Shown here piece by piece: positions 46,782-49,693 of a DNA stretch of 64,000 bases. Below the pieces are notes generated by a model, which saw only the letters and a list, made by a program, of their open reading frames with translations, made no database searches and had not been told where the DNA came from. Origin of the DNA: Natrinema pellirubrum DSM 15624 (lineage in GTDB: Archaea > Halobacteriota > Halobacteria > Halobacteriales > Natrialbaceae). The first letter of the stretch is position 1, and each line of letters begins with the position of its first letter. A program made the translations under genes and the position numbers. The stretch lies in the NCBI RefSeq assembly GCF_000230735.2, contig NC_019962.1, forward strand, positions 1,364,001-1,428,000, written 5' to 3'.

Positions 46782-46864
46782 CACCTCGGCCGAACCGCGC
46801 CCCGTCTGTTTCCGCCGTCTCTCGTCCAGTCGAGGCCACCGGCATGGATCTCCGACCCTTCCGA

Positions 46865-47458
46865 TCAGGGGAGATCGATACCGGTGAGCCCCTCACTGCT
46901 CCCGACGACGATCGTCCCATCGCGGCGCACGACGATCCCGTAGCCGAACAGGGTCAGCTCGAAGACCACGTCATTGGCCTCTCCTCCGTCGCTCCTGAGC
47001 GGTTCCTCGACGGCGAACGTGGCCGATTCGATCCCCGGCGCGTCGTCCACGATCGCCGCGAGCGTCGCGGGCGGCACGTCCCGGATCGCACCCTCGACGG
47101 TAAACGCGAGGACGTCGGGTCGCACGTCGGCCCCGTCGGGGTCGTCGTTCGCCGACGGCCGGAGCGCGTCGACCCCGTCCGTGATATCGTCCGGGTCCGG
47201 CGTCGCGACGCCGACGTCGACGTCCTCGAGCCGGAGCGCCGCCGACGCCGTCAGATCGATCTCGACGGGATCGCCGTCGGCCGACACGGCGATGCGGACG
47301 GGGTTCAACGTCGCGCCTTCGAACTGGGCGAGCAGCGCCTCGGTCATCGTCAGTCGCCCACGCAGCGTAAACTCGAGTCGGTCGGGCGGGACCGTTTCGA
47401 CGGCGTTCGCCGTCAGTCTGATGCTCTCGGCGTCGGCGAGCCGGACTGTGACACTCAT
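46865..47458 (-). CDS. Conserved haloarchaeal protein of unknown function
   Basis: 197 aa starting MSVTVRLADAESIRLTANAVE. It is mostly beta-strand and acidic, with Asp-rich turns (LEDVDVGVATPDPDDITDGV) and a C-terminal GYGIVVRRDGTIVVGSS hairpin. There are no TM segments, signal peptide or Cys clusters. I do not recognise it. Its codon usage is that of its neighbours. It is divergent from the Gfo/Idh gene (114 bp), with which it may share a regulatory region. Confidence 0.7.
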   Translation of the reverse strand: MSVTVRLADAESIRLTANAVETVPPDRLEFTLRGRLTMTEALLAQFEGATLNPVRIAVSADGDPVEIDLTASAALRLEDVDVGVATPDPDDITDGVDALRPSANDDPDGADVRPDVLAFTVEGAIRDVPPATLAAIVDDAPGIESATFAVEEPLRSDGGEANDVVFELTLFGYGIVVRRDGTIVVGSSEGLTGIDLP

Positions 47459-47572
47459 GCACCCGGTACGGGACGGATCGAGGAAACCGTATCGTGCGGC
47501 GTGGAAGTAATCGGTCCCGTCACTGCCGACCCACGGCAAAGCGCTAACTATCGGGCCGATGAACGGCCGTCC

Positions 47573-48748
47573 ATGACTCTCGAGGTCGGCGTCCTCGGCT
47601 ATCGGTTCATGGGGAAAGCACACGCGAACGCGATGGCGCGGCTCCCGATGTTCTTCCCCGACGCACCGGCGATCGAACGCAGCGTGCTGGTCGGCCGCGA
47701 CGAGGACGCACTGGAAGACGCCGCCGAACGGCTCGGCTTCGACTCGATCGCAACTGACTGGCGCGACGTCGTCGCCGACGTCGACGTCTTCTACAACCTC
47801 GGCCCGAACCACGTTCACGCCGAGCCGTCGATCGCCGCCCTCGAGGCTGGGACGCCGGTCTTCTGCGAGAAACCGCTCGCGCCGACGCTGGACGACGCCG
47901 AGGCGATGGCCACAGCGGCTAGCGAAGCCGGCGACGACGTGCCCGCCGGCTGTGCGTTCAACTACCGGTTCGTGCCCGCGATCCAGTACGCCAAGACGTT
48001 GCTCGAGGCGGGCGACCTCGGTGAGATCCATCACGTTCGCGGGCAGTACTTACAGGATTGGCTGGTCGATCCCGACGCGCCGTGGTCGTGGCGTAACGAC
48101 GAAGAAATGGCCGGGTCGGGGGCGCTGGGCGACCTCGGGGCGCACACCGTCGACCTCCTGCGCTTTCTCGTAGGTGAGGACGACCTCGCGGGCGAAATCG
48201 AGCGGGTCAGCGGCCACCTGGAGACGTTCGTCGAGGAACGGCCGGTCGAAGGGAGCGAGGCTCCGGCGGAGCCTCGAGAGAACGAAGACGGCGACGCCGT
48301 CGAGGACGACGAAACCCGCCCCGTCACCGTCGACGACGCCTACACCGCCCAACTCGCGTTCGCAAACGGTGCGATGGGCACCCTCGAGGGGTCGCGCTTC
48401 GCGACGGGGCACAAGAACGACCACACCATCGAGATCCACGGCTCGAGGGGAAGCCTGCGGTTCTCGATCGAGCGGTTGAACGAACTCGAGGTCCTCCGGG
48501 CGGGCGATCGGGGCTACGAGACGATCCTCGTCACGGACGAGGACGACCCCTACGTCGACCACTGGTGGCCGCCGGGCCACGTGCTGGGCTGGGAACACAC
48601 CTTCGTCCACGAGAACTACGAGTTCCTGAGTGCGGTCGCGGACGGCGAGTCGTTCGCGCCGAATTTCGCGGATGGGCTCGCCGCTCAGCGAGTTCTCGAC
48701 GCGATCGAACGCAGCGACGAGCGGGGGGAATGGGTCGCGCTCGAGTGA
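47573..48748 (+). CDS. Gfo/Idh/MocA-family oxidoreductase
   Basis: 391 aa. The N-terminal Rossmann domain starts VGVLGYRFMGKAHANA; the family motif EKPLAPTLDDAE (Glu-Lys-Pro) and the GDLGAHTVDLLRFLVG His mark the active site at the junction with the C-terminal alpha-beta domain. It probably oxidises an inositol, sugar or sugar-derived alcohol with NAD(P). An acidic loop at about residues 222-248 is encoded by a perfect 9-bp palindrome with flanking low-complexity sequence (48256-48276). The start at 47573 (MTLEVGVLG) is the natural N-terminus. Confidence 0.88.
   Translation: MTLEVGVLGYRFMGKAHANAMARLPMFFPDAPAIERSVLVGRDEDALEDAAERLGFDSIATDWRDVVADVDVFYNLGPNHVHAEPSIAALEAGTPVFCEKPLAPTLDDAEAMATAASEAGDDVPAGCAFNYRFVPAIQYAKTLLEAGDLGEIHHVRGQYLQDWLVDPDAPWSWRNDEEMAGSGALGDLGAHTVDLLRFLVGEDDLAGEIERVSGHLETFVEERPVEGSEAPAEPRENEDGDAVEDDETRPVTVDDAYTAQLAFANGAMGTLEGSRFATGHKNDHTIEIHGSRGSLRFSIERLNELEVLRAGDRGYETILVTDEDDPYVDHWWPPGHVLGWEHTFVHENYEFLSAVADGESFAPNFADGLAAQRVLDAIERSDERGEWVALE
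48256..48276. repeat. Perfect 9-bp palindrome inside the Gfo/Idh gene
   Basis: CGAGGCTCC (48256-48264) and GGAGCCTCG (48268-48276) with loop GGC. It encodes part of an acidic surface loop (SEAPAEPRE). Same 3-nt-loop design as the hairpins at 17.3, 21.5 and 55.7 kb. Confidence 0.5.
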
Positions 48749-48839
48749 GTTCGGCCCCGGTCGGTTCCGCGTGCGATTCGGGAGGCGGTCGGACTCGAGA
48801 GAGGCACGTTGTGTTTTGGGTCAGGCCGCCACAGACGAC

Positions 48840-49160
48840 GTGCGGTGGCGCACGCTGTCGACTGCTCGAGTGAGAACGAGAGCAGTCGACGATACCGTGC
48901 GAGGGATGAGTGAACGCCGCCAGGCGTGAACGAATCGGTTGGGGAGGGTGTGGAGACGCCGTGCAGCCACGATAGCAGAACGACCCTGTTCTTCCCACCA
49001 TCGCAGTCGATACGGACGTCCCTGCTATCGTGGCAACGGGGAATGGCCACGTCCTCCCCAGCCGATTCGCTCTCTCCGTTCAGTCGGTCGCTCATCCCTC
49101 GCGCAGCGTCGTGTCGCGGTTCGTTACTCACTCACCGCGACACAGCGCGCGCCACCGCAC
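48840..49160. repeat. Large structured inverted repeat (2 x 139 bp, 43-bp centre)
   Basis: Left arm 48840-48978 and right arm 49022-49160 are both 139 bp and imperfect reverse complements: identical at the outer GTGCGGTGGCG and inner CCACGATAGCAG ends, diverged in between with small indels. Each arm carries its own hairpin 15-18 nt inside its outer edge: left stem GTCGACTGCTC (48857-48867/48880-48890), right stem GTGTCGCGG (49111-49119/49135-49143). The stems differ in sequence but both pair perfectly, and the loops share GAGTGAG and AACGA. It fills most of a 552-bp gap; no convincing ORF. Possibly a non-autonomous mobile element or structured RNA. Confidence 0.7.
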
Positions 49161-49300
49161 ACCGTGTGGTCGGTTCGGCACGAGACGTCGCCCGGGGGCT
49201 TCGAAACCGGCAGTTCGAATCGTCCGCCGACGACCTGCGTAACTCGAGCGGCCGACCGAGTTCGCAACGTATTCGCCGTGGCACCACCTCACACTGATCG

Positions 49301-49693
49301 ATGGCGGCCTACGAGACGACGATCGACGTCAGGACCGACGACCTCGGGCGCAGCGGCCACGTCAACAACTCGAAGTTCGTCGCTTACACCGACCTCGCGC
49401 GGGACCGCTACCTCGCGAGCCACGGCTACGGCCCTGACGACCTCGATCATCTGGTCGTCCGCCTCGAGGTCGAGTACGAGCGGGCGCTCGCGTCGCTGGC
49501 CCCGGTTACCGTCGGAATCGACGTGACCGACGTCGGCGAGACGAGTGTCACCCTCGAGTACGAACTCCGGGACGCGGAGGGGGTCGTCGCGACGGTCACC
49601 ACGGTGGCCGTCACGGTCGACGCGGACGGCCCGACGCCGCTCCCGGACGCGCTGCGCGAGGCGGTGGTGGCCGACCTCGAGGGAACGACCTGA
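49301..49693 (+). CDS. Hotdog-fold acyl-CoA thioesterase (4HBT)
   Basis: 130 aa. RTDDLGRSGHVNNSKFVAYTDLARDRYL is the 4-hydroxybenzoyl-CoA thioesterase motif: the catalytic Asp usually lies in D-xxG-HVNN, here DDLGRSGHVNN. LEVEYERALASLAPVTVG and the later strands complete one hotdog domain. It hydrolyses an acyl-CoA, chain length unknown. A weak TATA (GTATTC near 49268) supports the ATG at 49301. Confidence 0.87.
   Translation: MAAYETTIDVRTDDLGRSGHVNNSKFVAYTDLARDRYLASHGYGPDDLDHLVVRLEVEYERALASLAPVTVGIDVTDVGETSVTLEYELRDAEGVVATVTTVAVTVDADGPTPLPDALREAVVADLEGTT

Follow-up and report, generated by a model that had tools for sequence, protein, structure and literature searches.

A dispersed haloarchaeal repeat with a covarying, probably single-strand fold, found at an inverted pair in Natrinema pellirubrum

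An intergenic region of Natrinema pellirubrum DSM 15624 contains an inverted repeat whose two arms carry hairpins of different sequence. This raises the questions of what kind of element the repeat represents, whether its structure is under selection and, if so, in which molecule. We analyzed it within a window of 64,000 nucleotides (positions 1,364,001 to 1,428,000 of NC_019962.1), to which the coordinates refer unless another contig is named, and together with related sequences from other genomes.

The inverted pair and its surroundings

The inverted repeat consists of two copies of one unit of about 137 nt, which flank a 43-bp spacer with their 3′ ends facing each other. The left unit (5′ GCGGTGGCGC ... 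GCCACGATAGCAG 3′; 48842..48978, + strand) was recognized by the covariance model R1 with 140.0 bits (E 1.7e-32) and the right unit, which belongs to the same family and points with its 3′ end toward that of the left one (49022..49158, - strand), with 142.1 bits (E 5.4e-33). The spacer between them (48979..49021) is not conserved in sequence among doublets. The arms are 70% identical across ~139 aligned columns, which confirmed the two opposite 139-bp arms described in the first-pass annotation, and the outer repeat of the pair extends to 48832-49168.

In the left unit, the 5′ side of helix P1 (GUGGC, 48845..48849, +) has its partner GCCAC at 48966-48970. It is followed by hairpin A (48856..48893, +), which has a variable stem with double changes in its pairs and a tandem-GA apical part, by hairpin B (48905..48936, +; GAU-GA-GU-GA ... 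GA-AC-GA-AUC), which has double changes as well as kept GA/GA steps, and by the short helix P4 (48946..48959, +), some pairs of which are non-standard in this copy. P4 corresponds to columns 108-110/122-124 of alignment A2, which comprises 22 units of the N. pellirubrum genome and was not fitted to the model. In the right unit, A2 and R1 place hairpin A at 49110..49144 (-) and hairpin B at 49064..49096 (-). The stem of hairpin A is GTCGACTGCTC/GAGCAGTCGAC in the left arm and the unrelated GTGTCGCGG/CCGCGACAC in the right arm, both fully paired, and in the hairpins of both arms GAGTGAG..AACGA lies between the stem sides. The earlier description of hairpins at the same offset, with different and yet perfect stems and a kept loop, therefore holds for both arms. 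Within the window, matches to the loop word GAGTGAGN{0,4}AACGA are confined to these two arms (two versus 0.08 expected). Similar loop words had also been claimed for a 7.2-kb element in the window, which could not be substantiated: R1 recognized the two units only, and its next matches had E values of 0.13 and 0.21. The 354-nt strand over the pair folds 12 standard deviations below shuffled sequences, as any long inverted repeat would.

Both neighboring ORFs lie outside the element. The upstream ORF (46844..48748, +), whose product we take by eye to be an oxidoreductase-like protein of the Gfo/Idh/MocA type, ends 93 bp ahead of the left unit; its true start likely lies further in, and orthologues were present in 29/29 Natrinema genomes searched. 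The downstream ORF (49301..49693, +), by eye presumably thioesterase-like, has kept its position in close relatives.

Copy number, distribution and genomic context

R1 identified about 46 units in the N. pellirubrum genome, 45 of them on the main replicon, and a DNA search of the same genome gave 79 local matches. The majority of the units are single, and several form pairs with their 3′ ends facing at a distance of roughly 40-95 bp. The common layout is GCGGTGGCGCGCGCTG - hairpin A - CTGCGCGAGGGATGAG - hairpin B - CGAATCGGYTGGGGAGGRCGTGG - N - GCCACGATAGCAG. Hairpins A and B may be enlarged by extra, nested perfect hairpins (L019, L024, L029, L080 and also L324) whose stems differ from each other (e.g., GGAAGACGCGAAGCGTCTTCC, GCGGGACCTGCGGTCCCGC) and which resemble small palindromic insertions added as a layer of their own. 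On contig C1 of genome G000, five units, two of them paired, lie within 13 kb (441922-454747), far denser than elsewhere, with further units at 470-487, 525 and 597 kb. Downstream of a unit of Halopiger goleimassiliensis (L083), the 3′-end words ATAGCAGGACGCTTCAGTTCA are present in two copies at a distance of ~38 nt, and a weaker copy follows the units of L318 and L320. Two pairs in Haladaptatus (L141, 4274-4589; L186, 692-987) have their 5′ ends facing, i.e., the opposite polarity to the Natrinema pairs.

Of the 146 Halobacteriales genomes sampled, 65 contained units recognized by R1, as did 30 of 56 genera; many genomes had at least 20. With stricter filters, R1 found no unit outside Halobacteriales in 295 genomes of the phylum. 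A pattern scan of GTDB gave only haloarchaea among the matches listed, including Natrinema, Haloterrigena, Natronococcus, Natronorubrum, Halopiger, Halosimplex, Haladaptatus, Halolamina, Halogranum, Halococcus, Salinibaculum and others. The same pattern detected no unit in 2.9 million viral contigs, nor was one found in the phage records searched. In Rfam 15, the window had no match above the gathering threshold, and a tRNA was the only match at 20 loci from other genomes. Matches at loose E values were at chance level and due to the long hairpin, the best being a miRNA model with 39.9 bits versus 137. No earlier description of the family was found in the openly available journal papers searched.

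The neighbors of the units are ordinary chromosomal genes. In the named genomes with both neighbors assigned, convergent intergenes accounted for 30/99 units versus 56/331 other intergenes and divergent ones for 15/99 versus 92/331, the genes being called by an acidity rule and not by an annotation pipeline. The orientation of units relative to neighboring genes is weakly biased, and many units are antisense to both. A promoter of their own was rejected, as a TATA-like word at -45..-15 was present in only 1/36 units. For an intrinsic terminator the signal was weak, with TTTT in the downstream 40 nt of 5/37 units versus 2/36 in the upstream 40-nt stretch. We found no ORF family that recurrently overlaps the units, which speaks against coding-gene fragments in general and against the fragments of a known transposase that the first-pass annotation had named as a possible counter-explanation. 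At six loci (L153, L165, L191, L207, L227, L257), a helicase-like protein, by eye presumably Hel308-like, is encoded within a few kb of a unit, which is above expectation and may reflect an old shared site.

Fold, strand and constraint at orthologous loci

The aligned units support a four-helix fold, for which the covariation is strong. In A2, 94.6% of the cells of a 33-pair structure were paired versus 80.5% after shuffling, and 112 cells showed double changes versus 39; pairing collapsed once the partners were slid. In alignment A3, which comprises 87 units of other genomes and genera and, being fitted to R1, leans toward the structure, 93.4% of the cells were paired versus 72.1% after shuffling, with 515 double changes versus 140 and the same collapse on sliding. 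The double changes of A3 fell in 27/33 pairs and touched all eight helices. P1 was paired in 99.1% of the cells in Natrinema and in 88%, with double changes, in other genera. Hairpin A has a conserved GCGC base and above it a freely changing stem, with double changes in 9/11 pairs in A2 and 11/11 in A3. In hairpin B, Watson-Crick pairs alternate with tandem G.A pairs; double changes occurred in 5/7 pairs (A2), and both tandem GA/GA steps were kept in 21/22 units of A2 and in 86/87 and 82/87 units of A3, where the outer step was partly fixed by the search pattern and the inner one was not. P4 showed G-C/A-U covariation at A2 columns 110/122. The unpaired joints GAGGG and CGGYUGGGGAGG are conserved. 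The collection of homologues and the covariation analysis of the stems, which had been proposed as a check, thus revealed covariation in all helices across genera, in support of the earlier idea of a dispersed structured family between haloarchaeal genes.

The first-pass annotation had left it open whether the structure would be selected as RNA or as extruded DNA. G-U cells outnumbered A-C cells by 75 to 10 in A2 and by 310 to 25 in A3, and by 80 to 13 after restriction to pairs with a Watson-Crick share of 80% or more. The reverse strand as functional RNA was rejected, since alifold gave -39.7 for the forward versus -21.7 for the reverse strand and all tested units folded better forward. A duplex cruciform is a poor explanation, because its complement strand would carry C-A and TC/TC mismatches. 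Judged from these pairing patterns, the fold belongs to one strand, either as RNA or as single-stranded DNA, so that this part of the earlier proposal stood and the extruded duplex became disfavored. Folding of one DNA strand (e.g., lagging-strand ssDNA) would predict a similar but weaker excess of G-T over A-C.

At the window locus, 17/274 unit columns varied among four Natrinema species versus 35/239 in the spacer and intergenic flanks, and the hairpin A stems were without any change. In pairwise comparisons at the window locus, L056 and L077, divergence was roughly 2-5-fold lower in the units than in the rest of the intergene, significantly so in 9/10 comparisons, not all of which are independent. 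Single changes between orthologues at paired positions kept pairing in 30 cases and broke it in 11, with ~37% expected to keep it; stems that mutate without regard to pairing, the outcome that would have spoken against a selected structure, were thus not seen. G-C to G-U steps dominated among these changes, which argues against an arm-correcting mutation as their cause.

Individual copies do turn over. The pair at the window locus persists in G047, G155, G156 and G161, the last of these with differing stems; G164 has a single unit, the units are decayed in G163, G166 and G167, and they are absent in several genomes, e.g., G055. The copies syntenic with a N. mahii-like contig are present there too, one with a rebuilt hairpin B. 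No copy is essential by itself, since some decay and a given one is missing from many species. Sister species also differ by flips of the pair (L348-L353, L113), with breakpoints in arm-identical stretches. Between G166 and G167, hairpins A match in place (95%, 93%), whereas each 3′ half matches that of the opposite side (99%, 97%) and the spacer runs the other way, with 87% identity when inverted and 59% when compared directly. Between G155 and G156, hairpins A have swapped sides (93%, 95% crosswise), and in the sister species G164 the window spacer reappears reversed, attached to the single unit. An inverted pair of units thus becomes a recurrent inversion site. The spacer of L353 (G166, locus of L005) contains CTGTCTCTTATACACATCT, a Nextera adapter, followed by N, an artefact that arose in the assembly of a long inverted repeat.

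Possible explanations and comparison with known elements

We favor, at a probability of roughly 55%, the reading that the window pair is one doublet of a repeat that is dispersed in haloarchaea and specific to them, and that selection maintains a one-strand fold of its ~140-nt unit, most likely as RNA. As the strongest rival we consider a non-autonomous mobile element on whose folded single-stranded DNA a transposase acts in trans (IS200/IS605-type, as for PATEs or REPIN/RAYT). Selection would then concern the ssDNA fold, for the sake of mobility, instead of an RNA; we regard this reading as rather unlikely. A dispersed, non-coding, multicopy unit with singles, inverted doublets and a strand-specific fold would suit such an element, as would sites that hold a unit in only part of the Natrinema genomes. 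In the L056 intergene, for instance, nine retrieved Natrinema sequences have the unit and several others are closed to 7-68 bp, so a unit was gained or lost there. No mobilizer and no recent insertion was found. The empty sites known are all in relatives whose flanks are ~80% identical, where the ends are not readable to the base, and no target duplication was found at this level of identity. Copies checked in close relatives occupy the same place. Across 146 genomes, Y1 (RAYT) transposases showed no association with units (odds ratio 1.15, p 0.74), and 16 genomes with at least 10 units have no Y1. A TnpB guide RNA or ends shared with IS605 were rejected too: 0/27 TnpB loci of the genome carry a unit (best 15.9 bits, E 0.04), and 16/27 TnpB-type genes lie on the 288-kb replicon C3 whereas 45/46 units lie on the chromosome. 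An all-against-all comparison of flanking ORFs for a protein partner gave only housekeeping or large multigene families, and the viral and phage collections, as described above, gave no matches. The main argument against the mobile element is the purifying constraint at resident loci, which is unexpected for dead insertions.

Perfect stems could also arise without selection if template switching at quasi-palindromes corrects one arm to the other. The stem of hairpin A is indeed replaced wholesale among copies and sometimes among orthologues with pairing kept (L113, L119), and the extra perfect hairpins within A or B point the same way. Template switching may contribute to the turnover of the hairpin A stem. 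As the whole explanation it is improbable, because it would convert the GA/GA steps to Watson-Crick pairs, yet these steps are almost invariant; an excess of G-U over A-C would not be expected from it, and the differences between orthologues are single G-C/G-U steps; and it leaves the conserved unpaired joints and the low divergence at orthologous loci unexplained. Still less probable appears a function of the inverted doublet itself as a phase switch or invertible segment whose units serve as recombination arms. The inner part inverted between G166 and G167 (hairpin B, 3′ half and spacer, with the breakpoint between A and B), the hairpins A exchanged between G155 and G156 and the inverted spacer in G164 would agree with such a switch. 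Most units are single, however, the doublet spacers compared have no common sequence or promoter, the breakpoints lie in any arm-identical stretch, as general recombination would give, and the Haladaptatus pairs have the opposite polarity.

Returning to a repeat selected for a one-strand fold, most likely as RNA, the unit folds with P1 as closing helix, hairpins A and B, the short P4 and the joints GAGGG and CGGYUGGGGAGG. On transcription, a protein partner, an effect on neighboring mRNAs and the mode of spread we infer the following. Lying in intergenic regions, preferentially at convergent gene ends and with no recognizable promoter of their own, the units would form part of read-through transcripts, in which a protein or the decay or termination machinery may be bound by the fold together with its conserved joints. 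They would have spread through haloarchaeal chromosomes in the past, probably by a trans-acting route, and would now be inherited vertically. More tentatively, and with clearly less confidence, the units might be a haloarchaea-wide class of functional RNA with dozens of copies per chromosome, in which the joints and the tandem-GA hairpin come together in a tertiary core that is catalytic or has a dedicated protein as its ligand, and hairpin A is a copy-specific tag unchanged within a locus. The family occurs widely among haloarchaea, well-cultured genera included, has no entry in Rfam and combines RNA-type covariation with constraint at orthologous sites. It is thus a concrete target for studying RNA-binding proteins, 3′-end control or a possible mobility system in haloarchaea. 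To our knowledge, few dispersed structured RNA repeat families have been described in archaea.

Several known kinds of repeat resemble the unit in part. Prokaryotic MITEs, usually taken to include ERIC and Correia elements, are typically AT-rich and have terminal inverted repeats related to resident IS (PMC10969869). The unit is likewise short, non-coding, multicopy, intergenic and able to fold, but it is GC-rich, has near its ends only the 5-bp GTGGC/GCCAC, which is P1, and is missing from TnpB loci. PATE and SMR of Haloquadratum walsbyi are small hairpin-bearing repeats without transposase; the ends of PATEs are also found on IS605-type elements, and most SMR-A elements lie inside either of these (PMC3119063). 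They have in common with the unit that they are haloarchaeal, small, transposase-free and hairpin-bearing, whereas the unit has no TnpB link and lies between ordinary chromosomal genes, a distinction drawn from the published descriptions. REPIN/REP doublets with their RAYT transposase also occur as folded singlets and inverted doublets, but are 20-40 nt long, in contrast to a multi-helix unit of 140 nt that shows no correlation with Y1 (PMC3116915, PMC2817692). The tests run do not support membership of the unit in MITEs, PATEs or REPINs. Candidate RNA motifs of the Rfam type (PMC2864571) share the covarying multi-helix fold and the conserved unpaired joints, but the unit has dozens of copies per genome and is tied to no gene family. 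The closest known kind are the bacterial small interspersed repeats (BOX, ERIC, Correia/NEMIS). In Streptococcus pneumoniae, BOX, RUP and SPRITE are mostly shorter than 200 bp, intergenic and dispersed in one lineage with a low current insertion rate; BOX is modular and folds strongly when transcribed, and terminal repeats and target duplications are features of BOX and RUP, which are almost confined to pneumococcus and S. mitis (PMC3049150). The haloarchaeal unit differs from BOX and RUP in being GC-rich and present in at least 30 genera, in its strand-specific covariation and constraint at orthologous loci, and in its ends, where only the 5-bp P1 was found as a repeat. Like small interspersed repeats in general, the units are short, multicopy, intergenic and folded; like structured RNAs, they display covariation beyond shuffled and slid controls and strand-specific wobble pairing.
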